DNA of 20,676 nucleotides from Stramenopiles sp. TOSAG23-6 (taxonomy: Eukaryota > Sar), in the NCBI GenBank assembly GCA_900128565.1, contig LT636034.1, forward strand, positions 1 through 20,676, read 5' to 3'. Each line of letters starts with the position of its first letter. Positions within the stretch are counted from its first letter, which is position 1. The translations under genes and the position numbers were made by a program. The notes under the pieces were generated by a model. It ran no database searches. It was given only the letters and a program-made list of their open reading frames with translations, and had not been told where the DNA came from. Of the stretch, positions 1-18,531 are shown in pieces.

Positions 1-68
1 TTTTTTCATACGAAATTTCGTACCTAACAAATTTTAGTTTTTTTTTTTGAAATATTTTTTCACAATAC
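1..68 (+). other. 3' part of non-canonical intron A
   Basis: The window opens inside an intron that matches the three complete ones downstream. It has a branch-like GTACCTAAC (branch A near 27), a T-rich tract and the terminal block CACAATAC, ending at 68. The coding frame of exon 69-2642 continues from C68 in the same phase class (phase 1) as intron B. A perfect 14-nt palindrome, TACGAAATTTCGTA, sits at 9-22 directly before the branch block. An AG exists at 36-37, but using it would add a poly-T stretch to the exon and would not fit the pattern of the sister introns. Confidence 0.7.
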
Positions 69-3000
69 GCTCTTCATGTGAAGAAGCAGAATTTAGCTCT
101 AAGAATTCATCTCGTGCTTTGGAGGAACTTTCTCATCAAATGATTCGAACTCGGAAAGAATTTTCCGCTACTCAACATATTGCTGTACAAGCACAAGAAG
201 ATGCTCGAGCAGCACAGGCAGAACGAGATATGACAATTATGAAATTTGATCGAATGGAAAAAGCATTTTCTCAGTATCAGGAGGATCAAATCATTGAGTA
301 CCAGATGCAGAAAAAAGAACATTTTAAAATTGAGGAATCTTTGAGACATAAGTTAAATACATTGCGTAGTGTTCACGAGTTTGTGAAGGATAAAGAAGAA
401 AATAACGATAATCATTTCGAAACCAATGAGAGTATACATTCTATTGACCGTCATCCTATAGAAATAAAACGGCTTCGTCTACTTGTGAAAGAAAATAAAA
501 AAGTCTCAGATGGACTTGAAGCTCATGTAATGAAACTTCAACGAGTAGAAAAAAAACTTTTGACTGAAATATCAATTATGAAAAATATTTTTGCAGAATA
601 CAAAGTTATACGCAAATGTCATGCAGGTTCTTTATTGTCTAAAATTCAAAGGTACCAGGAAGAATTAGTTATTAAAGCCGATAAGGCGATGCAACGTGAA
701 AAATTACTTGTACAACGTATTGAAAAAGTTATTTCTAAAGAAGAAAATGCGAAGAAACAAGTTCAAACTTTACGACATGAGCTTTCTTCTACTCTTGAAG
801 AGTTATCTAAAATGAAAATAATAGTTGAAACACCTAATGTAGAAGACCTAACTACAGATGACGTTAAGGCTGCGTTGAAGAACCGTTCGAATCAAGATAT
901 TATGTGTGAAGTGTTTGCCCTAAAAAATATACATGCATCGTTACTAAAGAGAATAGCTGATCAGCAACGCCATCATAACGAGATAATGTTTCATTTGGCC
1001 CAAACTTTTGTTGTCACTACTCCAAGAATTTCAAATTTGATAAATGTGGAAAATCAAGAAAATGAGAAAAATATAGAAAATCAAGAAAATTTCAACTATC
1101 CAATTACAATCACGAATACAGGTAAGAAATATTGGAGGAACGAATTTGATCAGCGATTAAAGATAAACTCGTTGCAGAAGAATATTTTTGCTATTCAGAC
1201 TAAATCATCTAATCAAATGACATCATTGATAGAAGCTAATGTAAATATTGCCATTCTGAAGCAGTGGAAAGCGAATAAAATTGCTCAATGTGTGGAAGAC
1301 AAAAAGATTGACAGGGCTGTGATGCATAGACAATATGAAAAGTGTAGGCCAATACATGATAAATCAATAACGAGTAAAGATAGAAATATGTTATCAAATG
1401 AACTTGAAAAAGCGCGAAATGAAATTAGTTTATTAAAAAATGAATTATCAATCAAAAATACTGCTTTTGTAGAACTTCAACAGGGGATGAATCGAATGAT
1501 GGATGCGGCAGTGTCTCAATTTTGTGTGAATCATGCATCATTAAGTACAATTGAAGATGATGATTCGAAATTAAAGTTTGTTCAATCAAGTTTCGATAAT
1601 GACAAGGATAAAATTCGTCGCGTGTTGATTTCTCTGGATAGTAGAATAACTCTTGAAGAAGCGAAAATAAAATCTTTAAAAGATGCGAAAATTTTAGAAA
1701 GTTCATTACAAGACTTAAAAGAAGAAACTGAAAAGTTGAAAAATAGTAAAGTAAAGAACGAAGCAATGATAAATGATCAAATAAACGAAATTGAAGAGAT
1801 GCGTGAAGCTATTCATACATCAGAATCATCCTTTTTGAAATTAGGAAATGAAAATGCTCAACTTTGCAGAAAAATAGAAAGCGTCGAGTGTAAAGCGGAA
1901 CAACAATTACAAATTTCTAATAATAATTTGTTAGAATATGATCAAAAATATCAAAGAAATATTTCAATGGAAAATAAAATGTGTATTGAATATGAAGATA
2001 AATTATCTGCAATGGAATCCTTACGAAATAAAGCTCAGTTAGCGTTTGAAAAAGCAACTGAGCAATATGAAAGAGACAAAAAACAATTGGAAGAAAATTC
2101 AATAATGATGGGAAAACAATCTCAGATTGAATTAAATGAAGTTATTGAAACATTGAAAAGAGAAAATGTTCAATTATCAATGAAGTTGTGTGATGTTGAT
2201 TCAAATCGTATAGGTATAGATTCTAGTATGTTAATCAAAAATGAAGGAAAGGATAATCTAAAAGAAATAAGTGCTGAGTGTGGTCGTTCACTAGATGATT
2301 CAAATTTTGCCCAAGCAAATCGTGAACGCAATGCAATGTTAGAAAGAGTCAAAGATTTACAAATGAGATTGGAAGAACTTCAAATGCAAATGACTAAAAT
2401 TAAATCCCTAAACAAGAATCTTTCTATATCCAACTCTGACTTAAAAACGCGTCTCGATGATGCGAAATCAGAATCTCAGAGGGTTATACTTGCATTACAA
2501 AAAGATAATACAAATATTTGTCGAAAGATGATGAAATTTAATAATGCAGTGAAGATAGCAGCTCAACTTGCGACAGATGTCGAAGGAAGTATGACAAAAA
2601 TTCATGACAAACGTGAAGTTATTAGTCTTAAAGGAAATGTACGTTTTCATGATGAATTTCAGAATTATTTTTTTTTCATACGAAATTTTGTACCTAACAT
2701 TTTTTTGANANATNTTTTNCACAATACATGCCTCAACACTTGTTGATCAAGCACTTCAAGAAATCTCCACATTTCATGTTCAAACATCAAACATTTTGGA
2801 TGAATCTATTGAGATATCCGATAGATCAGATAGTGAAAATATTTCTGGTGATGCTTTTAGTTCATCATCACTAATAATGAGTGATCTTAAAAAAAAAGAA
2901 AATGTATACTTGAATAATTCACAGAAATCAATTATTATAGATCCATCATTTACATTGAAGCAGCAACGTATGATAAAGATTGTCATTCAAGCGCTTCGAC

Positions 3001-4653
3001 ATTCAAATGTAGAATTTGAGCGAATGAAAAATGCGTACGTAGAATTTCAAAAAATACAACACCAGAAACAAAAAATAGAAAAACAATTAAAAAAAAAAAC
3101 AATAGAGTTTGAGACGAAGCTATCATCAACAGAAAAAAGTGCAAAAATGTTTGCTAACCGAGCTGTTAAAGCAGAGCTTGAAGAATTGCGCGTTGCTTTA
3201 CGAGAAAGAAATGCCCAGCGCAAGGAGGCACGTACATTTTCAGAAATGAATTTTTACCTACAATTGTTTAACTATCAAAATTTTGTGCCTAACAAATTTA
3301 TTTATTAAAAACAATATTTTTTCAAAATACATTTGAGTCTTTAAAACGTAAACAATTAATCATACAAGAAGCGAAAAGTAAAGCAAACAATGCAATCGCT
3401 CAAAGAGATGAAGCTATAGAAAGAGCGATGCGTGCTGAATTATCACTCAAATTATCCAAAACTGAAAAAGACCGTAGAAATAGTCGAATTATTGAAATGA
3501 AACATCACGAAAAACAATCAGTACAAAGGGCTGAAGCTGCTGAAGCGACTGTTGTGAAACTCACAGACAAAATAAAGGCGTTACAACACACTTCGAGTAG
3601 ATCCAAAATAAAGGCTCAAAGGTTGAAAAAACAACTTGAGAAACAGTTAGACGACATTGCAAAGGTTGATGTATATGAAAAAGAATGTAAAGAATTAAAT
3701 AATCGTATTGAAAAAATCAGACTAAAAATGCAATGCATTTCAAAACGTTTAAAATTATCTGAGAGTAAGAGAAAAACTGCCGAGAATAAAGTGGTGGAAT
3801 TAAAAAAAACTCATACGAAAACAAATATATGTAAATCTCGTAAGTATAAGAAAAATGTACAAAATAAAAAAACTGAAAATAAATCTGAAAATAAATCTGA
3901 AAATAAATCTGAAAATAAATCTGAAAATAAAGATTTTCAAAATTCAGACATTGATTCGATACAATGTAAATTAGAGACTGCTGAGAATCGTATTGAGGAT
4001 TTATGTGGAGCAATCATTGCAATGATTTCTGCAATAATGTTTGGTAATTCACAATTACAACACCAATTATTACACAATACGGAAAATAAAGGTAACAAGT
4101 TTGAATCATCAGCTGATCATTTACTTCAATTACCAGTAGAGCAAGTTGATACATGGGTGGAAGATTCTCTCAACAAACATTCGCTTCTCTTGTACGTTTT
4201 CAAAATTGATTTTTTACATATATTTTTTTACGCTGAAAGTTGTGTACCTAACAAATCTTTTAAACCAAAATGTTTTTTTCACAATACTTACTACATAAAG
4301 TCCAGACGGCTCTATCTAACATGCAAATAGACGAGGCTGTGCTCCAAGTAGTACTTGCTGATATTATAGAAGAAAGAGTTCGTTTACATTTAGCAGCTGA
4401 TATTGCCGATGTTGCCTTGGATGACGAAAATATACATATTTCTGAGGAGGACATGAAATTTGCATCAGATCGATTTAAAACCGCAGCTTCATTGCGCAGA
4501 TATGAAAATCTTGTCATTCGCATGCAAGATCAATCTGCCTTGGAATATAAAGAAAATCAAAAAGCATTTGAACAATACGAGGATCAAATTAAAATACTCA
4601 AAGAAGAGAAATGGGGATATCCTCCAACTAATAAGTTGCCCTATAGAAAATAA
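69..4653 (+). CDS. Large coiled-coil protein, 3' part, four exons visible
   Basis: I do not recognise this gene. It enters from outside the window; the visible exons are 69-2642, 2728-3235, 3331-4195 and 4288-4653 (stop TAA). With the one base owed by the upstream exon they sum to 4314 nt, exactly 1438 codons including the stop. The product is rich in E, K, Q, N, S and L with few prolines, and long stretches have a heptad-like look, so an extended coiled coil is expected. A low-complexity (ENKS)n run is encoded at 3875-3934. No signal peptide, membrane segment or catalytic motif is visible, but the N-terminus is missing. A structural, cytoskeletal or trafficking role would be usual for such a protein, but nothing here fixes it. 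Exons 2 and 3 have no ATG at their start, and open frames between exons lie in different phases, so these are exons of one gene and not separate genes. The introns are non-canonical (described separately). Confidence 0.8.
2643..2727 (+). other. Non-canonical intron B (RT...AC)
   Basis: The 85-nt intron is flanked on both sides by TAC: exon ...GTAC before GTTTTCA, and AATAC before ATGCC. The upstream frame leaves off after C2642 at codon position 1 and the downstream frame resumes at codon position 2, so the join is in frame (phase 1). The first two AG dinucleotides downstream (2750-2751 and 2759-2760) do not restore the frame from the GT at 2639. The branch-like GTACCTAAC has its A at 2697, 54 nt after the intron's first base and 30 nt before its end. 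Ns at 2709, 2711, 2714 and 2719 mark poor consensus. The exact cut could slide by up to three bases because of the repeated TAC. Confidence 0.75.
3236..3330 (+). other. Non-canonical intron C (AT...AC)
   Basis: This 95-nt intron is also bounded by TAC on both sides (exon ...CGTAC, then ATTTTCA; 3' end CAAAATAC, then ATTTGAG). Joining after TAC3235 to 3331 continues the frame (phase 2) straight into the next exon. The intron contains an in-frame stop, so it must be removed or the protein ends. Its branch-like block is GTGCCTAAC with the A at 3292, 56 nt after the start and 38 nt before the end. No AG lies between the branch block and 3330. With the cut after TAC the termini are AT-AC, the pair typical of some U12 introns. 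A frame-compatible AG exists at 3367-3368, but it is 76 nt past the branch and has no counterpart in introns B or D. Confidence 0.75.
3875..3934 (+). repeat. 12-bp tandem repeat encoding ENKS
   Basis: Four exact copies of GAAAATAAATCT and a fifth ending AAAGAT encode four Glu-Asn-Lys-Ser units followed by ENKD inside the coiled-coil gene. The unit is a multiple of three, so copy-number change keeps the frame. It is a coding minisatellite, probably a flexible charged linker between coiled-coil segments. Confidence 0.9.
4196..4287 (+). other. Non-canonical intron D (GT...AC)
   Basis: The 92-nt intron is bounded by TAC (exon codons TTG TAC, then GTTTTCA; 3' end CACAATAC, then TTA CTA CAT). The phase is 0 on both sides. 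The flanking frames differ by 92 nt, which is not a multiple of three, so removal is needed to connect the two open frames. The branch-like GTACCTAAC has its A at 4251, 55 nt after the start and 36 nt before the end. No AG lies between the branch block and 4287, and the first six AGs beyond it (from 4299 to 4351) all break the frame when paired with the GT at 4192. Confidence 0.78.
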
Positions 4654-7571: not shown

Positions 7572-10500
7572 ATGGCTACCAAGAGCTTAGAAGATTGGGA
7601 AGATGAGCAGAAAGCACAGGAAGATGATCTTTTATATTTTGAAAAAACTTACTTGAAAAAAGACGACATAAAAGAAGAAGAAAAAACAGAAATACAACGG
7701 GACGACTTGCTAGATTCGAGTCGTAGTACAGAGCAAAAAGAATATGACCCAATATCACGAATCAAATTTCAAGACAATTTACAAGAGCACATTAATCGCG
7801 TAGTAAATGATGTTGCAGATTCAGTTGCGCGATCTTGTCTTGTGCCTAAAGATGACGAAGATGTAGTAGTCCGTGGAACTCTTCATCGAGCGAGAAATTT
7901 GCTCGCTTTAGATGGAGCGATAAATGCATTTATCATTATTTCTTTTGTTGAAGCAGTACCTCAACTTTCAAATAAGGATCCCAATAACAACATGCGTAAT
8001 TGTTCTCCTAAAAATAGTGTCATGTTTAGACCAAAACGGGAAGTTCATCGTACAGAAATTATAAGAGATTGTATACGAGGAAATCCAACGTGGAAAGACG
8101 GCACTTTTAATTACTCAGCAAAGAGAGCCAAACCTTCAAGCTCACAAGATATTCCAAAATTGGGAGAATTGTTATTTTCTTTATATGATAATAAGAATGG
8201 AAAATATAACGAATTTATTGGTCAGGTTCATATACCATTAATATCCCTATTATCGCCGTCTTTGTCGACACCAGGTTTATTACACGGTTGGTTTCCGCTG
8301 AATCAGAACCGTTATAAATCTAGCCCACGGAAGAGTGTAACAACTAGTGACCATGACAATATTGGCGAAATTGAATTAACTTTACGATTAGGTGCTAGTG
8401 TGGGTAATGAACAACTCGCTGCTCGTGCTGCAGCTGCATTAAACCAAACTGGTTTTCATTATAACAGAATGTCGAAGACCAGTACAGATGAAACAAAACA
8501 TAAAAGTGTTGATGTTTCAATCGATACCGGAGATACTTTGCGGAGTGATGAACATGTACTTCTTGTTGATTCGATGAATACACCTATAGCTGAAATTGAT
8601 ATTGAAAAGCAAATGGCTATAACGAAAAAACGTGTAAAGCAATCGGCTAAAGTCATTCCTCTCTCAGATGGAATCAAAAAGGCTCGAGCAGGTATTCTGC
8701 CTCAAAAAGAAGTTGCTAAAGCTGACATACAAGTCGATAAGAAAGATGACAAGAAAACGATAAAGAAAAGAAATCAACGGAGAAAACAACAGGGTCGGGT
8801 AACTGGTGCTTTAGTTGCTGAATATACAGCCGATGGGAAACCATCTGGGCGATCTAGACGAATGTATCCCGTGGAAGTTCGAGGCCCTGGGATATCAAGA
8901 AGGAGAAGAGAGTCGAGACGTATCAAAAGAGAAAATGAAAGAGCCGAACAAAGACAAAAGGATCCTTCATGGGCATCCAGTAAAACAGACTCAAATGTAA
9001 ATGGGAATCCTCAGGCTGATGAAAACAAAGCCAAAGTAGAGCTACATCATGCTAAGCTCCGAAATATGAAAAATGCAAAGATTAAACAAGAAAATAGACA
9101 ACAAAGAAAACGACTGAAGAAAATAGCACGTCCAATCCCAGGGACAAGAAAGAACAACAAGAAAAAAACATCAAAACTTCGAAAGTCTCCAAAGGGTAAT
9201 AACCAAAATGAAAACCAAAGTGAAATGACGTCAACGGAAATTGAAAGGGCAGGGTTTGAATCTGAATTAATGCGGCTAAAAGTTCTTCGAACGAAGCTTA
9301 AAACAGAAATTAAACATTTGACCACTCGTATTGGAAGTGTCAAGAAACACTCTAGGCGACTACGTGCAAAAGCAATAATGGGTGAAAAGTTTGCAAAAGT
9401 TGTTCGTTCTTCGAGCACACAAAGTAAAACTAGCCAATTAGGTGAGAAACGGCTTTCCAAAACGACACCAAATACAACACAAATAGTGTCTTTGAAGATA
9501 AAACTTGCATATCAACGTGATAAGCTACAAAAGGGTATCGAGAACTTTGACAATACATTAGCAGGTCTGCGGAAATCTCACCAGGATGTAAAAGAAATGA
9601 AAGAAATGCAAAAAAAATTGGAATATGACATTGCATGCGCACAAGTTCGAAAGAAGTGGACAGCAGCGCGAAGAATGTATGAATTCAAAATCAAAAACGG
9701 TATCAATACATCTGATTTGGTATGGCCTCCAAAAGGTATCGATCCACTACTTGTTCAGGAACAAACCGAAATTGATAAAGTAGCAGCAAATATTTTAGAA
9801 CTGAGAAAAGCTGCTGCGAAAGTAAACATAGCCGAGAATAGGAGAGATTTTAAATTACAAAGAGACATTGAAGGACTTAAAGTTGAAGAAGGAAATACTG
9901 AAAGTACACTCACGAAATTAAAACAGTCCTTGTCTAATGTAATGACTGAAAAGAAAAATGCGGCTGAAGAATTAGCAGAGCTGGAAGAACTCGATGAAAT
10001 AGTTCAATTGAAAAGATTTTTACGTATACTTCAGCAAGCTGTTATGCAAAGTGGTTCGCCAAGAGCGAAGGATCGATGGAACAAAAACCAAATGACATCG
10101 AGGGCGCAGAGGCGAAAACAAAATTTTCAGCAAGAGTCCTGGAAATTAGGTGAAAACACGACCCTAACAAATCTAACCGAGGAAAAAACTTTGAATGATC
10201 ATATAAACGTAGCTGATACCGAAGCTAAGGCAAATGCAGTAGAAGCTGATACAAAAATAGATGTACCTGAGAAAAATACAGTAAATGAACTTCCAGTAGA
10301 AGCTGATACAAAAATAGATGTACCAGAGAAAAATACAGTAAATGAACTTCCAGTAGAAGCTGATACAAAAATAGACGTACCTGAGAAAACTACAGTAAAT
10401 GAACTTTCAGTAGAAGCTGATACAAAAATAGATGTACCAGAGAAAACTACAGTAAATGAACTTCCAGTAGAAGCTGATACAAAAATAGACGTATCTGAGA

Positions 10501-10667
10501 AAACTACAGTAAATGAACTTCCAGTAGAAGCTGATACAAAAATAGATTTACCAGAGGAAGGTATCAGCGATAGCGACTGTCTAAATGATGATGAACTTTT
10601 TGAAACAGTTGGATCACGCACAAGTATAAGTGGAGAATCAAGTGAAGAAGATATATTTGCTAGATAA
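7572..10667 (+). CDS. C2-domain protein with basic coiled-coil body and C-terminal repeats
   Basis: A 1031-residue protein without introns. Residues 1-90 are acidic and polar. Residues about 98-275 read as a C2-type beta-sandwich: VRGTLHRARNLLALDG at the start, NPTWKDGTFNY in the middle, LLFSLYDNKNGKYNEFIGQV near the end and IGEIELTLRLG last. It has a long lysine/arginine-rich insert around 130-170. Few of the expected calcium-binding aspartates are evident, so binding could be calcium-independent; that is inference. Residues about 385-550 are strongly basic with RRRRESRR-like runs, and about 560-690 and 750-850 look like coiled coil. From residue 890 a 19-residue unit (VEADTKIDVPEKNTVNELP) repeats six times, followed by an acidic tail. 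No signal peptide or membrane span is seen. A membrane- or cytoskeleton-associated scaffold is plausible. The family beyond the C2 domain is unknown to me. Confidence 0.85.
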   Translation: MATKSLEDWEDEQKAQEDDLLYFEKTYLKKDDIKEEEKTEIQRDDLLDSSRSTEQKEYDPISRIKFQDNLQEHINRVVNDVADSVARSCLVPKDDEDVVVRGTLHRARNLLALDGAINAFIIISFVEAVPQLSNKDPNNNMRNCSPKNSVMFRPKREVHRTEIIRDCIRGNPTWKDGTFNYSAKRAKPSSSQDIPKLGELLFSLYDNKNGKYNEFIGQVHIPLISLLSPSLSTPGLLHGWFPLNQNRYKSSPRKSVTTSDHDNIGEIELTLRLGASVGNEQLAARAAAALNQTGFHYNRMSKTSTDETKHKSVDVSIDTGDTLRSDEHVLLVDSMNTPIAEIDIEKQMAITKKRVKQSAKVIPLSDGIKKARAGILPQKEVAKADIQVDKKDDKKTIKKRNQRRKQQGRVTGALVAEYTADGKPSGRSRRMYPVEVRGPGISRRRRESRRIKRENERAEQRQKDPSWASSKTDSNVNGNPQADENKAKVELHHAKLRNMKNAKIKQENRQQRKRLKKIARPIPGTRKNNKKKTSKLRKSPKGNNQNENQSEMTSTEIERAGFESELMRLKVLRTKLKTEIKHLTTRIGSVKKHSRRLRAKAIMGEKFAKVVRSSSTQSKTSQLGEKRLSKTTPNTTQIVSLKIKLAYQRDKLQKGIENFDNTLAGLRKSHQDVKEMKEMQKKLEYDIACAQVRKKWTAARRMYEFKIKNGINTSDLVWPPKGIDPLLVQEQTEIDKVAANILELRKAAAKVNIAENRRDFKLQRDIEGLKVEEGNTESTLTKLKQSLSNVMTEKKNAAEELAELEELDEIVQLKRFLRILQQAVMQSGSPRAKDRWNKNQMTSRAQRRKQNFQQESWKLGENTTLTNLTEEKTLNDHINVADTEAKANAVEADTKIDVPEKNTVNELPVEADTKIDVPEKNTVNELPVEADTKIDVPEKTTVNELSVEADTKIDVPEKTTVNELPVEADTKIDVSEKTTVNELPVEADTKIDLPEEGISDSDCLNDDELFETVGSRTSISGESSEEDIFAR
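10239..10580 (+). repeat. Six-copy 57-bp coding tandem repeat
   Basis: Units start at 10239, 10296, 10353, 10410, 10467 and 10524. Each encodes 19 residues beginning VEADTKID. The first five differ by only a few bases (for example AAT/ACT giving EKN or EKT, and one P to S); the sixth diverges after its first third. The unit length keeps the frame. The antisense strand also stays open across the array, which is a by-product of the periodic sequence. Confidence 0.95.
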
Positions 10668-10723: not shown

Positions 10724-13700
10724 TTACGAGAACAAATCATCGCGATCAATTGTCACAGCTCCAGCACCTTCAACCTCAGAGAAATTCAAGAAATGTTGTT
10801 TTCTGTGTATTTCATCATAAAATGTTTTCGGATTAGCCAGACATAAGTCGTAATGCATCCCTTTAGAATGCTTTATTCCCTGGAAATTATAATTCCAAAT
10901 GTTATCCTGTGGCACTAAGAAACTTCCAAAGAAACGATCCGATAAAAGTAACTGAGTTTGTTCATAATGCGAGGGTGAAAACCCAACGGGACTTGGAGTT
11001 TTATCATCATTTTGTCTGCCCCAATCGAAACCCTCAGGCGTGAGCTTGTAGCATGAAAGAGAGCAACTTCCTGGAGTAAATGAGATCGGTAATACAACAG
11101 TTGTTTCACCATCCCAGGATGTATTATCTGCCATAACTTTCGCATGCATTGTTACGTCGTATGGTGATAATCCATTTAGTTCCGCCGGTTGAGTGTGAAT
11201 CCATCCAAGTGGTTCAAGACCTTCAATAAAATCATGCTCAGGTAATTTAGTAGGAAATGTCACGCCTCTATGAGTACCAATTTGTGGAACCATGACGATA
11301 AGACGAATTTCTTTTACAGATGGATTTTCTGCTGGAGAAATACCATAAATGTAACCACCAACAATTGTACGTAAATCTGAAATGCAGATGAATTGTTTCA
11401 GTATGTTCTTCGGCATTACATACGTAAAACCTGTAGCACCATCCTCATCGCCATTGCCAACAAATATATTTTTGCATCGCAGAGGTAAATTTGTTGCAGA
11501 AATTGCACGCATTCTCCAATCTGTTTTACTAGCAAAAGTATCTTGTTCATATTGTGACGTATTTGTAACAATCATTTCATCACCATGTTTGTTCACAGTT
11601 CGTGTTGTCGTTGCTGTCAATTGTGAAGCTTCGCGCGCTTGTTTCTCTATATCAGCAATTTGTTGACGCTGTAAACTTGGTGCAGCAATTTCCATTCCTA
11701 AAATAATATCTCTTATTTCTGATTGAGTAAGACTTTGAATACTGACATTGTTTTTCTTACCAAAGTCTTCAAGGATCAAATCTTTCAATGAAACCTCAAC
11801 TTTAATCCATTCTTCATCAGTGAGGGTAGGCCAGATATGATGACCAGCAGTAACAGTAGTAGTGTCTGGTCTCAACACAATCTTAGCTTTATCGTGACTT
11901 ACATGTAGAGCTCTCAGAATAAGAATGAGTCGAGAAAACGCAGTATATGATGAAATTGTTTTGAGCCAATCATCATAAATGTTGAATAAAAGCATTTGAG
12001 GTTCAGTTGCTTTAAGAATTAAATCGCCAAACTTTTCTACCTTCAAGCACGCCATAAATGGCAATTGCAAATCACAACCTTTAATCACAATATTNGNAAA
12101 ATCNATNAATGNANCTCCATCGGATCCAAGAGAAATGGCCGAGTAACAATAATTTGCTTTGGTTGTTCTTCAACAGGGAGAGAACGAATCAGAGCAGCAA
12201 CTTCTTCTGCCGTTTTCCATTTTGCCAACTGTGATAAACGTTTCTGGCCTGCCCATACCGAAGTATGAATAATTTTCAAAAACAACTGTCCTGTTCTTGG
12301 ATTGAAGATGAATATTGCACCATTTATAGGTCTTGTTGTCAAATTACCATCAAATGTCTTATGTATTGTGACACGATATACGTTTGTATCGTCAACAAAC
12401 CAAATTATTTGGTTGGAAAATAATTCACCATAATTCTGTGATGACAAATACGGTTCTGTAGGCTCTGAAGAATACAACTGAAGACCTTTTCGAATACGTT
12501 CTCTCAATACATACAGTGCTGGATTAGACTTCACTATTTTCGCCATGGCTTGCTGTACCAAAGGCTTGCAACCCGGGAACCAATTTCCGAAGCCTGAATA
12601 GAGATTATATGCAAGATCAACTGCAAGAATTACACCAGTAGGAGACGGATATATAGACATATTATCAGTTGTATAATCCAAAAACTTTGCACGACTATAC
12701 CGTTCAATATCATGAGAGTCATAATCACCCCATCTACATTGGATATCTAACCAATATTTCGTGGTAGTTGTATCATCATAATTATCTTTTGGGTCATGTA
12801 ATAATGCCGGCTTCGCTACTTGCCATTTGTAAGCCGCAAATAATAAAATATCAGCACAAGAGGTATTCATTTTGTAACTTTTACGAGGATGAATCGTTTC
12901 TTTCTGTACGTTTTCGATTTCTAATGCATCCAGTTCTTGATCAAATACTTGGCATATATCCATCACAATACTTTCATGAATTTTTTGCCACAAATGGGCA
13001 CGAAATATCTGAATAAGAGAAATTTTCAAAGTAGGAATTTTACCATGCATGAAAATACCAGTCAAATCCAATTGTACTTGAAAACCAACATATACATTTG
13101 CACGATTAATTGTTGGAGACCACCATAAAGTAAAACGTCGATTCGGAATCTGATTCAAACCTGAACGCTGCGCATTTGTCAATTTTTTAAATCTCATAGA
13201 TTCTTCAAAACCAGATGCTTTTTCCCAAAACAATCCTTCCCAAGTTGGAAAATAAGTTCCCTTGAAGAGCGTGTGTTCTAAAATACCTTCAACGCCGCCC
13301 AAAGCTTGGATCATATCCGTACGATAATTATTTAAATTCCATAATTTACCATCGTGACGTTGATGAGTCCACCAAAACGGGTCAGTTCTATATTGAATAT
13401 ACTGACGAAAATGTTTACGTACGCGCCAACCTTTATCGTATGCAAGAGTATGCCGATCTTTTTGAAACAATGTATTTATACGAGGCACACCACGATCCCA
13501 AGAGTCTTCAAGATCTTCTAACGTTAACCTTCGATTTTGAGCATTAGCCTCTTGACGTTTGAGAGCATATTCAGCCCAAACACGTTGACTATCAATAAAT
13601 TCAGCTTCCCATGGTTGGATGTAACGATATAAATTAGGGATAAGTTGATCTTCCTCATGAGACATACCAGACCTAAAATGAGTAACACCTGCATCAGTTT

Positions 13701-16700
13701 GCTTGGAGTACCGTAAATCAGATTGTGGAATCAAAACATGACCCATTGAAAGCATTCCTAGACCACCCAATTCTTTTGGGGTGTAGAAGACTACAGGAGG
13801 GAAACGACTAGGCATTTTTGAATTTAAACCAACTTTAATCCGTGTTTGCATCTTATTTTCACATTTTACAAGAATATCAAGAAGTTCTTGTGTATGTACT
13901 ACAGCTTCACGATAATATACCATGAGACTAATACATGCTGTATTCCACTTATTTGCAATTTTAGTGAAAGTCGCTTGACCAGCTGTCATAAGTATATTTC
14001 GAACACGATTTTCAAATTCAAGACAACCTTCTGCGTCTACACGCAAATACGCTTGTGCAGTCCTTTCTTTTGTTTCTTCATTTTGTAGATTCCACACGCC
14101 ATCTTTATTGACAAAATCCGACATATTTGCCATGCGGCACTTTGGAAGAATGCGTACTTCAAATCCACACATATTAAATAATACATTAGGATTATCACGA
14201 CTATAGACTGATACGAATGAATGTTCCCATTCTAAAGTTGTCACTGAACGCGGTAATCTATTATTCAGATCCCAAAATGTTGCCCTTCCTAAATTAACAT
14301 CATGTTTCATTAAACGCATTCGAGCATCACGAGGCCAACATTTTTTGTTATTATACCCAACAATATTTTCATTATTTGGATCCGGATTTTCAGTGAGATA
14401 TCTTTGAATAAGATCTTTACTCTGATCAGAAGAGAATTTCAACAACATAAAGACTTTATCAATATATCTAGCATACATTCGAATAGGATGACGGACTTCT
14501 GTTTCCAACGAATCAAAAGTGAGAAATTCATTCGGACGCTGAGGAGGACCTGCAAGCTCAGATGCACGAGTTAGACCTAGCGACAGAAGATCAAGCACGA
14601 GACCATAATATTGAAATATAAAGGATGCGAATTGAATTCCTCTAATGAGACCGTAACTGTTAGTATGCATCATATCCTTGAAACTTAACACAACATTATT
14701 TTTAGCAGTCATATAATCAGCGATATTATGATCAACAATTAAACGCAAAAGTCGGTTTAATAAAGTCAAATCGATTTTCTCGTAGACTTTTTCAAATTTT
14801 GATTGAACCATAACTAGACATTCGCCATTCTTTGTCTCCCAGACGTCATGTAAATTATTCATTCCCTGACACCATTTGTAAACAAGTAATGGAGGTGGTT
14901 CTGAATCAGCAGGCTTGACCCAATTTGGAAATAATCTTCTTTTATCAGCTTCATACCAAATGTATTGGTCGAGGTATTGATCAGTTATCTTCTCTAAAGG
15001 CTCGACTTCATATACCGGAATTAAATGAGTATATAAATCTAAAAATGTCATACCTACTTCTTTAAATGCACGTTGCACTAGCATATGTCTTTTGATACGC
15101 GCCAAAGCTTCATGAGGATTATCATACGCCAACTCAACTAGACCTAATTCTTCACGTTCACCACTTGATAGACGATGTTTTGTCGTATATATTTCTTTCA
15201 ATCTTTCAAGAGATAAAATAAGTAGTTTCGTATCGTGCTTGTAAGACAAAGGAGGGAATGGAATAGGAGCAAATTTTCTTGATTCTAACCAATGTACCGT
15301 TGTAGTATATATAGCAACAGCTTCTTCAGAGGAAACATATGGACCATCTTTAAGGTAATTATGTTGTCGCTCTTGTTCAGCTTTCAAGAAAAGACGAGTA
15401 AGTCGACCTAGATTTTTCCTCGTAACAGTTTTATTACAAGTTGCGCCTCTACGAACACGTTCACGATTGTAATGAGCAATATTCGTCCACCAATCTGCTT
15501 TACTCTTGACATATCGAAGAATCATGTTTTCAATAGGTGCTGGTAAACCAGGGACTTTCCATGGAATATTAGCTTTCCAACATCGCCAAGCTTCTGATAA
15601 ATGCTGCAAAATAGTACGACTTTTATTAGCTTTGACTCCTTCAGGCATCATATCGATAATATCATGCATAACTGCAGCACGAAGTTCAAGGTCGAAATGA
15701 GATTCTACACGTTGTTTTGTTACAGTTTTAGCAATTCCTTTTGAATGACGTCCTTCAAATTGACGTGCAAGAAGATTTCCGAGCCATCTTTCAAGTAGCG
15801 GTATAATACCTCGAAGGAAGAAGAGCCAAACTCTCCATGTCGATACCCAGAAGCCAACACCTGGACCTTTACCAACAGGACCAGTATTGAAACGATAATA
15901 TATCAAATGTTTCAGATCTTTACACATCCGTATTTGTTTCATTAGCTTATATTTATACCGATACATACCTGTAAGTTGTCCGACATGAGAGAATATATAC
16001 TGCAAACCATCTGCGAGTTGATATGCATCAACATTACCTAAACGATATTGAACATGTGTATCAACAACAAGTTTTGTAAGACGTAATATTTCTCTGGTTA
16101 AATGAAACGCATTACCAAATCGAGATTTTTTCCTTTCTTTTGTAGTCAAAGTTTTGACAGGTTTTAGATTAAAATTGTAATCAAGATGGAGGTACAATAA
16201 TTGCTTTCTATGAATCAGTAAATTTAACATGTTATATCCTTGACGAACAACTTGTAAACCAGCTTCTACCCAATCTAATTCTGTACTTTGAAAAAACTTT
16301 GTTTGTCTGAGCGCTTTAAACAGATATTTTTTATTCAAAGCTCTTGGAGGACGTTTGTGCAATTCATTCTGCACCCATGACTTAAGCAACTTTTGGTATG
16401 AAACACGAACTTTGACTGGCTGGTCTCGAGAAACATGCTCTGTATACCATTGCTTAACTAATGGCACATCAATACAACGACGTGTAAAACCACTCCGCAT
16501 GTTAAAAGGTCTTGGAGCATGTAATAAAGCAATTCCTTCAGCAGTATTAGTAGTACTTATCGGAGTGTTTTGTAAGATAGGTTTCATTCCAACTGGCAAA
16601 CAAAAATCTTCTCCACCGTCTATTTGATCAGCAAGACGATTCCGTTCTTCTTCGATTTCCTTCGATTTTTCATTTTGAACAACTTGAGTACGAAAAGACG

Positions 16701-18090
16701 ATAATGGATTCACCACTGGATCATAATAAAATGCTGGCAAGTCGGGATCCTCAGGTTTTATAAAGCAAGATGGCACATGATGATAAAATGGGATAGCTAC
16801 AGATCGGGGACGGCTATTGTAAAGATATGGCATAGCAATGCGATATTCTGTGCGAATTTGCGATCGAATGATCACTTTGTTGATGTCATTAAATTCATTC
16901 CAATCTTCTTCATCTATGGCTGCGTCTTTATGCAAGGGCTCAAATTTAGGCCCACCTGGAATGGCTAAATTCAATGCTTTTGCAGTAAAAAAAGATTTTA
17001 AATCGAAAAGGTAATAATAATTCTTATCAGATAGATCGGATAACAACTGGCCAGCTAAGCGATAGAGATTACTCATAATACTGACAGGCATTCTCCATTT
17101 TCTGTAAGAAGGACCAAGCACGTACTCAGAATGTTTAAGAGGGCTGCGATCGTACAACCAATCAATGACAGGAGCATCGTCTTCCTCATCCAGTTCCATT
17201 TCTATTGCTGCCAATGGTTCCACATCTAAAAGATTATCACCATAGTCGAGCGCTGGTTCTTCATCGTCAAATGGAGGAAAACGCATACGTTTGAAATTAC
17301 GACGGTCGCGTTTTTCACGTCGCATCATGATCCACATAGTACCCCACTGGGCTTTATACACAGGCTCAATGACCCAAGGGACTTCGTTTACAAAAGTGAT
17401 TGCACCTGTTACGTGATACAGTACCTTGACGTTTTTAACTTGTTCCCACGGCATCGGCATATTTTCCAAGAGTTTATATACTGAATGTGGAACGTATTTT
17501 AGAGCACCAAGATATACACGTTTATCTGTGATATACTTTTTCGACATCATATCTCCGTGGTCTTTCACAACTTTACGCACGTGCTCCGGGGGCATGTCAC
17601 TTTTATCCATTTCGACATAACCATGCTTTCTCTTTTTCGAAAAACGACGCGTGTGCATCTTTTGCCATTTCCTAGCCTTTTCGATTAACTTCTTTCTTTT
17701 GCGTTCCTCAAGTTCCTCGGGAGTAGGTGGTTCGCGTGGTGGAGGAGGAACTTGTCCTTGAGAGTAAATTCCCGGTTGCCCAGGATGAACTTCTACTGCG
17801 TTTGGAAACGAGGGCTGGTGGGAAGAGTATTGTTGTTGGGGTAATCCTGGCGGGGGAAAACCTTGATAACCAGGTGGGGGCATGCCACCAGCCATGGAAG
17901 GATGTGCGTTCGGCGGCAGTCCAGGAGGAGCACCGAAATAATAACCAGGAGGAGCACCCGATCCTGGAGGTGGAGCACTCTGGAAAGGAGCACCCTGAAA
18001 ACCTTGTGGAGGTAATCCTGGAGGTGGACCCTGATAACCAGGTGGGGGCATACTCTGCGCCTCATCATGAATATACCCAGGTCGGGGCAT
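10724..18090 (-). CDS. PRP8: Pre-mRNA-processing-splicing factor 8 (PRP8), with one-base consensus error
   Basis: PRP8 is the largest protein of the spliceosome core (U5 snRNP) and holds the 5' splice site, branch point and 3' splice site at the catalytic centre. The sequence matches the family end to end: KARKWQ and [16 protein letters not shown] near the N-terminus, [64 protein letters not shown] in the RT-like/linker part, then the RNase H-like domain, and finally the Jab1/MPN domain with [10 protein letters not shown] and the C-terminal tail [11 protein letters not shown]. The frame breaks at about 12095-12114, where six Ns occur. The total span is 7367 nt, one short of a multiple of three, and adding one base gives 2455 residues. 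The N-terminal 120 residues are a proline/glycine/tyrosine-rich extension longer than the human one. No introns are visible in over 7 kb. Confidence 0.96.
12095..12114 (-). other. Low-quality stretch with apparent frameshift in PRP8
   Basis: Ns stand at 12095, 12097, 12104, 12107, 12112 and 12114. On the coding strand the region should encode the conserved segment between LDPMEVH and IVIKG. The observed stretch is one base shorter than the codons need, with the missing base near 12104-12105. Conserved PRP8 sequence continues without loss on both sides, so this is a consensus error and not a biological frameshift. Confidence 0.88.
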
Positions 18091-18531
18091 TATCGCATAA
18101 GAGGGAGGTGCGTAAAGAAGGAGTGTAAGGTATTTACGCTTCGGTCCGAACTACTCGCGCGGTGTCGCGAGAGAGAGTGTCGTGTCATGGATGGCATGCG
18201 AACCGAAGCGCGACACAAAAAAAAAAAATTTGAACTCCCTTGGAGGGACAAACCTGTCCGGATCTCGCTGTAAAAAAAAAAGAAGGCTCTAACTTGGCTT
18301 GAAAATTCATGAAATTTTCAACAGAAAATGAGAATTTTCATAAATTTCAACAGAAAAATATAAAATCATAGTATATTTTTTTGCACTTTCATTAATATAC
18401 CTAAAGCGACGTTGAAACTCATGATAATAAAAAATACTAAAATGGAAATTCATATTTATTATTACTATTTAGATATGTATTTTTAATATTATTAGAAACT
18501 CAATTATTTGTAAAACATATTTTAGATGTAT
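18091..18531. promoter_or_regulatory. PRP8 upstream region with structured leader and direct repeats
   Basis: This 441-bp spacer lies between the PRP8 start codon and the DDX52 stop codon, both on the minus strand, so it holds the PRP8 promoter and leader. Within 120 nt of the PRP8 ATG there is an inverted repeat CGCTTCGGT/ACCGAAGCG (18137-18145 and 18202-18210). It encloses the hairpin CTCGCG/CGCGAG (18154-18171). Further out two imperfect copies of a unit of about 30 bp ending TTTCAACAGAAAA lie at 18302-18328 and 18332-18358. The rest is AT-rich with no gene visible. Confidence 0.45.

Follow-up and report, generated by a model that had tools for sequence, protein, structure and literature searches.

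Introns that appear to end without AG in the single-cell genome of an uncultured marine stramenopile

Few two-letter signals in eukaryotes are as conserved as the 3′ AG, and a long coiled-coil gene at the start of the window (by which we mean the whole 20,676-nt stretch of contig LT636034.1 analysed here) raises the question of whether introns can be removed without it. A preliminary description, made from the letters alone, had noted three intervals in this gene (B, 2643-2727; C, 3236-3330; D, 4196-4287) that interrupt one shared frame in phases 1, 2 and 0. We reproduced this at the same coordinates, together with the in-frame stop that results from retaining C, the change of frame caused by the 92 nt of D, and the lack of any AG from CTAAC to the 3′ boundary in all three. 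The next AGs downstream are out of frame as well (the first two for B, the first for C and the first eight listed for D), and the claim of introns proven by frame and lacking a terminal AG is supported. The position of the junctions stood as regards the frame but not as regards the exact cut, since a better-supported cut lies 4 nt further upstream at the left boundary and 2 nt further downstream at the right one. With this correction the frame in the window is the same and two residues fewer are read; the corrected register was derived from class introns in other genes, the coiled-coil gene of the window being no part of that test. In this register the features are:

71 to 2638, 2730 to 3231, 3333 to 4191 and 4290 to 4653, plus strand: exons of the host gene, encoding a long coiled-coil protein
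1 to 70, plus strand: 3′ part of intron A, which began before the contig start; CCTAAC at 23 to 28, AATAC at 64 to 68, final two nucleotides (NN) GC at 69 to 70
2639 to 2729, plus strand: intron B, 91 nt, phase 0, AT^GTACGTTTTC...AATACAT^G; flanking dinucleotides AT left and AT right; branch motif CCTAAC at 2693 to 2698, inside TGTACCTAAC; 3′ splice element CACAATAC plus AT at 2720 to 2729, base 2719 being N
3232 to 3332, plus strand: intron C, 101 nt, phase 1, AC^GTACATTTTC...AATACAT^T; flanking dinucleotides AC left and AT right; branch motif CCTAAC at 3288 to 3293; 3′ splice element TCAAAATAC plus AT at 3322 to 3332
4192 to 4289, plus strand: intron D, 98 nt, phase 2, TT^GTACGTTTTC...AATACTT^A; flanking dinucleotides TT left and TT right; branch motif CCTAAC at 4247 to 4252; 3′ splice element TCACAATAC plus TT at 4279 to 4289

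Intron A is a fourth, partial member of the class, and in it an AG does follow the branch, at 36-37. A 383-aa piece of the host protein had no match in Pfam.

A genome-wide class and its motifs

A genome-wide search for matching introns, which the preliminary description had proposed, yielded 436 exact matches to the tail pattern (branch...TTYAMAATAC) in the 8.03-Mb assembly, duplicated contigs counted, versus 1 in the reversed control. Judged from these sequences, the three intervals of the window are genuine introns and belong to a class found across the genome, and the suggestion of a separate non-canonical class is supported: in the single-cell genome of this uncultured microbe from the sea, hundreds of introns seem to close with a fixed ACAATACAT-like motif and not with AG. 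Their layout is NN^GTAYGTTTT...CCTAAC...TTTTTTCACAATACNN^, with a branch (TGTA)CCTAAC, a T-tract and a 3′ element TTTTTTCACAATAC, in sense orientation within genes.

The counts given here rest on 85 strict introns, many of the 223 relaxed candidates being probably false. Because donor, branch and tail motifs were the criteria for the strict set, its motif frequencies in part reflect that choice. The donor has G at +1 in 83, T at +2 in 80, A at +3 in 77, G at +5 in 76 and T at +6 in 83 introns, a U1-complementary (GTRNGT-like) 5′ site whose score was part of the selection; as had been remarked, it is unlike the U12 donor RTATCCTT. A CTAAC branch occurs in 84 of the 85 (a TAAC motif being part of the selection), and CCTAAC together with the 24 nt before it was found in 81. 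A T-tract lies at about -16 to -11, so that branch and pyrimidine tract are both in place, and the branch A stands 31-56 nt from the intron end. Donor and branch are, by their motifs, U2-like. The AG that a U2-type 3′ end calls for is largely missing, the last two bases being AT in 66 introns and AG in 3.

Keeping the intron would break the gene in 80 of the 85 cases (63 by a stop, 17 by a frame shift only). In 14 long loci the tail motif was hit 51 times. Coding sequence in the sense direction flanks 47 of these hits on one or both sides, with no antisense call; 2 lack a coding flank, and 2 were called antisense, both of which are introns by gene models. Of 51 coding gaps, 25 fit the motif rule, 17 more look class-like by eye and 9 are not intron-like; no convincing GT-AG intron was seen among them by eye. 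Class densities are biased, because the loci were mostly fetched for containing the motif.

The cut and the use of AG

Conserved proteins fix the cut. Fifteen junctions in six proteins (UAP1 five, MCM5 four, Myb two, a 2-hydroxyacyl-CoA-lyase-like enzyme two, GlnRS one and pyrophosphatase one) are gapless against solved structures or homologues, and none of the introns ends in AG. Left out of this count were the first and second MCM5 junctions, which fall at alignment gaps, and those of a DHCR24-like and a ZC3H3-like protein (L022 and L047), whose support is general background on the homologues; a search for a solved structure of the former gave no match. In the conserved proteins two more nucleotides follow the (A)ATAC element before the cut, and the ending is ...ATACAT^ in most cases. 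The GT-AC and AT-AC terminal pairs described earlier were lost with this cut, as they had arisen from the misplaced register; the end is mostly AT, sometimes TT, GT or others. The genome matches GSMAST32 in EukProt, a name that implies a MAST-3 stramenopile single-cell assembly, and the public UAP1 model from it (P0181) differs from ours in five blocks, one per class intron.

The dinucleotides on the two sides form a direct repeat, usually AT, in 58 of the 85 strict introns (39.7 expected, 0 of 20000 permutations), and in the relaxed set of 223 the neighbouring positions have little or no excess of repeats. Where the two dinucleotides are equal, the same mRNA would come from another register, cut before the repeated dinucleotide and after AATAC (^ATGTAY...AATAC^), which would give mostly AT-AC ends; A at +1 with C at -1 is a known AT-AC intron combination. 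We regard this register as unlikely. In the 27 strict introns with unlike dinucleotides, the right one is AT in 20, the left one in 3 and neither in 4, which fits a right dinucleotide that belongs to the intron and a left one that belongs to the coding exon. Moreover, two mismatched junctions among the 15 are informative, and both require the left dinucleotide: CRERW in Myb needs R, not C, and VYTSG in MCM5 needs V, not M. GTAYGT would also begin only at +3. That these are ordinary GT-AG introns with misplaced ends is very improbable, even though an AG lies nearby in some of them and 3 of the 85 end in AG. AG between the branch and the 3′ element is moderately depleted (16 observed versus 24.9 expected from shuffled sequence), as would be expected if AG still mattered, and a few single cases lean the same way: the minus-strand intron L046 ends in an AG-compatible AATAGAG, in L052 a join from a GC donor to AG scores 18.6 versus 17.2 for the class cut (with flanks of unequal length), and L066 offers two AG-ended joins, both from non-GT donors, with scores of 9.7 and 11.7. 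Yet the first AG that lies 10 nt or more past the branch is in frame in only 26 of 84 introns, matching chance, none of the 15 gapless junctions has an AG end, and in the pyrophosphatase gene, which proves the class cut for one intron, the AG cut creates a stop.

The pyrophosphatase intron is one of five, picked by eye and L052 among them, with TTTYAG near the end, in which the coding sequence is better with a cut 7 nt later (class and AG cut scores 17.2/-8.1, 15.2/9.3, 0.8/-27.5, 11.4/-12.7 and 6.9/-12.5); a well-placed AG such as TTTTTTCAG can be skipped. We also considered, and rejected, the idea that a few introns with this branch truly end in AG. The pattern GTACCTAACN{22,52}TTTYAG had 49 matches versus 2 in the control. 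In five of the 15 places fetched, all chosen for having no visible AATAC-type end before the AG, a class-type end was seen by eye just past the AG and is favoured by the coding, and the other ten had no clear AG-ended intron, although the two L066 joins do score. The remaining 34 were judged from the printed matches only.

Origin and removal of the introns

The two-nucleotide repeat is of the kind left by target-site duplication in introners. The variable middles of 48 introns have a mean nearest-neighbour identity of 0.82; for 25 of them the closest relative is at least 85% identical, for none at least 95%, so there are no recent copies. Among 12 matches in IMG/VR, 9 fall in one phage coding sequence and 3 lack flanking motifs, and we took them for chance.

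Taken together, the motifs suggest that the splicing machinery uses another rule to locate the ends of introns. We think it quite probable that the class consists of spliceosomal introns, belongs to a MAST-3-like stramenopile and is handled by U2-type machinery without the AG rule, having spread in an introner-like manner. An essentially ordinary U2-type spliceosome would remove them, reading the 5′ site and the branch as usual and choosing the 3′ site through the T-tract and an AAUAC element instead of AG; U2AF35 or another step would have changed, and the class would have spread as an introner-like element duplicating two target nucleotides. A stronger version has, in our estimate, slightly better than an even chance: the lineage would have dropped the AG rule entirely, measuring from the branch, reading the U-tract and CACAAUAC and cutting two nucleotides past them whatever the bases, ignoring good AGs, though Prp8 is ordinary in the stretch examined; an ancient introner family would have set this code and replaced the ancestral introns.

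Part of that machinery is encoded in the window itself:

10724 to 18090, minus strand: PRP8 gene, without visible intron

A stretch of N (about 12085-12169) divides the gene into two reading frames, and the matching public Prp8 model has stretches missing from this apparently intronless gene. The Prp8 domains are present and canonical over the 421 aa compared, so no change in the machinery was identified. Searches for U1, U2, U6 and U12 snRNAs and for U2AF35 gave no match, in a probably incomplete assembly and without a eukaryotic positive control; for U12 there was no signal anywhere, controls included. The U6 family search gave signal, below the cut-off, in four prokaryote controls. A U2AF2-like protein is present, with a double RRM1 and without RRM2, an arrangement that we dropped as a cause because other stramenopile proteins have it.

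The preliminary description had also offered diverged minor-class introns, and this is not supported. U12-type introns are rare in their genomes and, like the class, can end without AG. They differ from it in donor and branch spacing: the donor is GTAYGTTTT instead of RTATCCTT, and the branch, which in U12 introns must be near the 3′ end, is not TTCCTTAAC close to that end but GTACCTAAC at its distance of 31-56 nt. The motifs argue against the U12 type, and since the class makes up all the introns recognisable in the 51 coding gaps, we consider it extremely unlikely. Just as little can be said for DNA-level elements (IES-like excision) or free mobile elements that are not RNA introns; the two-nucleotide end repeats, and the related sequences at many places, with their averaged 0.82 identity of the middles, would fit, but the donor and branch motifs are of intron type, and among the 51 tail-motif hits there was no confirmed antisense insertion and only 2 lacked a coding flank. 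Splicing without a spliceosome, of the kind proposed for euglenids and hemistasiids, in which the ends would be base-paired and cut by other enzymes, is quite improbable. Short direct repeats occur at the intron ends here, as passages of PMC12621601 and PMC7789003 describe for non-conventional introns, and GTAT...ATAC forms a 4-nt terminal inverted repeat. However, the strict introns have a U2-like donor, branch and T-tract, and neither pairing that we examined covaries: the base at donor position 4 does not depend on which base ends AATAC, and the palindrome before the branch (TACGAAATTTCGTA), a candidate RNA hairpin, is conserved in sequence with a summed paired fraction of 4.35 versus 4.27 expected (six column pairs, 81 introns).

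Other unusual introns and what the class would mean

Several systems share features with the spliceosomal introns that we favour. In the larvacean Fritillaria borealis, according to the portion of PMC13326754 available to us, 95% of introns in the genomes examined are off GT/AG while the core spliceosome is kept, U2AF genes are duplicated, and some 3′ ends are AU or AC; its splice sites range broadly and include non-canonical 5′ sites, whereas the class has an apparently canonical donor and branch and a single non-AG motif at its 3′ end. Amoebophrya, as far as the sections seen of PMC7789003 go, likewise has repeated introns with short direct repeats at their ends, over 60% of them non-canonical, but no clear splicing signature, in contrast to the strong motifs at all three sites of the class; its introner subset has 3-5-nt direct and 8-20-nt inverted repeats, unlike the 2-nt repeats here. 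Introners in general resemble the class in their related copies and target-site duplications, and part of PMC9860276 gives them GY/AG core splice sites with some GC or GA 5′ sites; the class differs in that its last two bases match the duplicated target, mostly AT, and in its lack of recent copies. The excerpted text of PMC12621601 describes hemistasiid diplonemid and euglenid introns that also lack GT-AG and carry short direct repeats, but with paired ends and no U1 complementarity, whereas the class has a U1-type donor and no covariation in the two pairings.

Since the public UAP1 and Prp8 models depart from the genes as read here, functional inferences from single-cell genomes of this kind may need re-annotation. 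A 2018 paper on MAST-3A and MAST-3F assemblies (PMC5778133, seen in part) reports that complete protein matches in MAST-3F were too few for gene-finder training. If the proposed rule is true, the AG rule would be separable from the rest of splicing, and directly testable; it would raise the questions of what reads the acceptor and whether a nearly ordinary Prp8 core is able to carry out step two without AG.

Introns of one class across the assembly

Three intervals in the window had been proposed in the preliminary description to interrupt one long coiled-coil frame, and the interruption, the phases, the in-frame stop and the AG properties claimed for them were all reproduced. As re-cut here, the three introns are:

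2639-2729, intron B of the coiled-coil gene
3232-3332, intron C of the same gene
4192-4289, intron D of the same gene

A tandem repeat, AAATCTGAAAAT, is present in this gene between introns C and D (window about 3876-3930).

The genome-wide search for introns with the same motifs that had been suggested proved productive. In the whole assembly (8,027,113 bases in 408 contigs, the window being contig C84, 1-20676), the pattern CCTAACN{20,50}TTYAMAATAC had 232 matches on one strand and 204 on the opposite one, while its reversed control gave 0 and 1; these are places, contig duplicates included, and not independent introns, as some contigs repeat one another or themselves. Identical introns occur twice, within or between contigs, in C13/C14, C33, C37 and C58, as expected of the amplification chimeras of single-cell assemblies. 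A motif scan gave 72 candidate introns in 179 kb, and criteria on donor, branch and tail gave a strict set of 85 in 259 kb, with a median length of 100 nt and 31-56 nt from the branch A to the intron end. Retention would break the gene in 80 of these 85, and class matches sit within genes, in sense orientation, so far as this could be called. Beyond the signals, nearest-neighbour similarity among introns is moderate (mean 0.82, n=48) and reaches 0.95 in none of the 48, so the family looks old. The 2-nt repeat and the GTAT...ATAC ends recall a transposon-derived introner. No covariation was found in a palindrome upstream of the branch. A search of open-access literature on MAST-3 and other MAST single-cell genomes, non-canonical protist splicing, introners and Fritillaria turned up no account of this intron class.

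Junctions and register

Homologue alignments were made with the cut NN^GTAYGT...AATACNN^, which gave gapless alignment at 15 junctions:

UAP1: MTD^DDT, QGT^LPC, VSS^IWC, RSG^ITC, KKV^IPC
GlnRS: KR^MTM
2-hydroxyacyl-CoA-lyase-like enzyme: VWI^IWG, DAC^WTQ
Myb: CRE^RWF, VGN^KWC
MCM5: four junctions, with by-eye joining at the last two
Pyrophosphatase: YKV^PDGK

The 15 leave out two more MCM5 junctions, which coincide with gaps in the alignment. The cut points first proposed were compared by arithmetic rather than by these alignments: they make each intron 6 nt shorter, and every junction gains two residues. UAP1 (locus L040) reads as a complete 492-aa protein with five introns, all of the class; one of the five has a GA donor, and the ends are AATACNN in three, AATATAT in one and the variant CATTGTGT in one. 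Upstream of this gene, at about 2080-2110 (-), TTAGGG-like repeats are possibly telomere-like sequence within the contig.

In 58 of the 85 strict introns the dinucleotide that precedes the donor is repeated directly after AATAC. Composition predicts 39.7 such introns, and none of 20,000 permutations reached 58; further out there is little or no excess matching (relaxed set, n=223). Among the 27 unlike pairs, AT stands on the right in 20, on the left in 3 and on neither side in 4, an excess that would follow from a right pair that closes the intron and a left pair that belongs to the coding sequence. Residues at the Myb (R) and MCM5 (V) junctions also assign the left pair to the exon, and nothing can be read from the mismatched junctions of UAP1 and the lyase. 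Since the unlike pairs and these residues place the left pair in the exon, most of the introns run GT...AT, in place of the GT-AC and AT-AC ends first described. The final dinucleotides (n=85) are AT 66, TT 6, GT 5, AG 3, AC 2, GC 1, AA 1 and TA 1.

AG as a candidate acceptor

That these are ordinary GT-AG introns with misplaced ends is very improbable, even though several observations speak for it. Counted from 6 nt past the branch motif to 10 nt before the end in the 84 introns with CTAAC, AG occurs 16 times against 24.9 in shuffled sequence, and is thus depleted there, yet not excluded, at least one being present in 15 of the 84. Some alternative joins to AG also score well: one with a GC donor in locus L052 (18.6 vs 17.2 for the class cut, over flanks of unequal length) and two with non-GT donors in L066 (9.7 and 11.7). 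Against this, when the first AG lying 10 nt or more past the branch is taken, it is in frame in only 26 of 84, the chance level, and in the pyrophosphatase the AG cut leads to a stop while the class cut yields the conserved WYKVPDGK. Five introns, chosen by eye among 15 places fetched for a TTTYAG end, have a higher coding score when cut 7 nt past the AG. Across 14 long loci, none of 51 same-strand coding gaps held a convincing GT-AG intron: 25 fit the motif, 17 are by-eye variants, one of which (L046, AATAGAG end) is compatible with AG, and 9 do not look intron-like. On the sequence and protein evidence AG is not the acceptor signal, and the same evidence gives good support to the class of introns, to the junctions assigned and to the way in which AG is passed over.

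The organism and its splicing machinery

The window Prp8 and the UAP1 match EukProt GSMAST32.ASY1 proteins P0004 and P0181. UAP1 is identical to P0181 save five blocks (435/477 aligned residues), and Prp8 shares 1141 of 1160 aligned residues with P0004, from which it differs through absent stretches and a different tail; from this near-identity, the window genome is either the GSMAST32 public assembly itself or one that can hardly be told apart from it. By its name, GSMAST32 is a MAST-3 single-cell assembly; MAST-3A and MAST-3F assemblies were described by Seeleuthner et al. 2018 (PMC5778133). The public UAP1 model departs from our spliced reading at all five class introns, and several stretches of the Prp8 gene (window 12124-18150), in which no intron is visible, are absent from the public Prp8 model, as if introns had been called there. 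Other features noted are:

Locus L067, 1096-3060 (-), contig C376 of the assembly: U2AF large-subunit-like protein
Locus L049, 1-564 (-), contig C1: eukaryotic 18S rRNA gene, of which the 5' part is present and could serve to place the organism
Window about 12085-12169: N-containing stretch dividing the PRP8 frame in two, which looks like an assembly flaw rather than an intron
Window about 10246-10560: tandemly repeated, VEADTKIDVPEKTTVNELP-like units in the coding sequence of a C2-domain protein, close to where its gene ends

Over 421 aa round the U5- and U6-binding regions, Prp8 aligns to human Prp8 gaplessly and is nearly identical. The U2AF large-subunit-like protein has an RS region, two RRM1-like domains and a UHM, with no RRM2-like match, and the double-RRM1 layout is common to other stramenopile proteins, such as that of Ectocarpus. 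A U2AF35 query on the assembly gave two weak matches only, both to other RRM proteins, and U1, U2, U6 and U12 RNAs were undetected; these absences weigh little because the assembly is probably incomplete and the RNA searches had no eukaryotic positive control.

Introns that do without the AG rule, removed by what we infer to be a U2-type spliceosome, are the likely explanation of the whole; that spliceosome would be the agent, and some part of the machinery would presumably read the acceptor. We lean slightly towards a lineage that may have no AG rule altogether, in which the acceptor would be cut past a fixed element whatever the letters.
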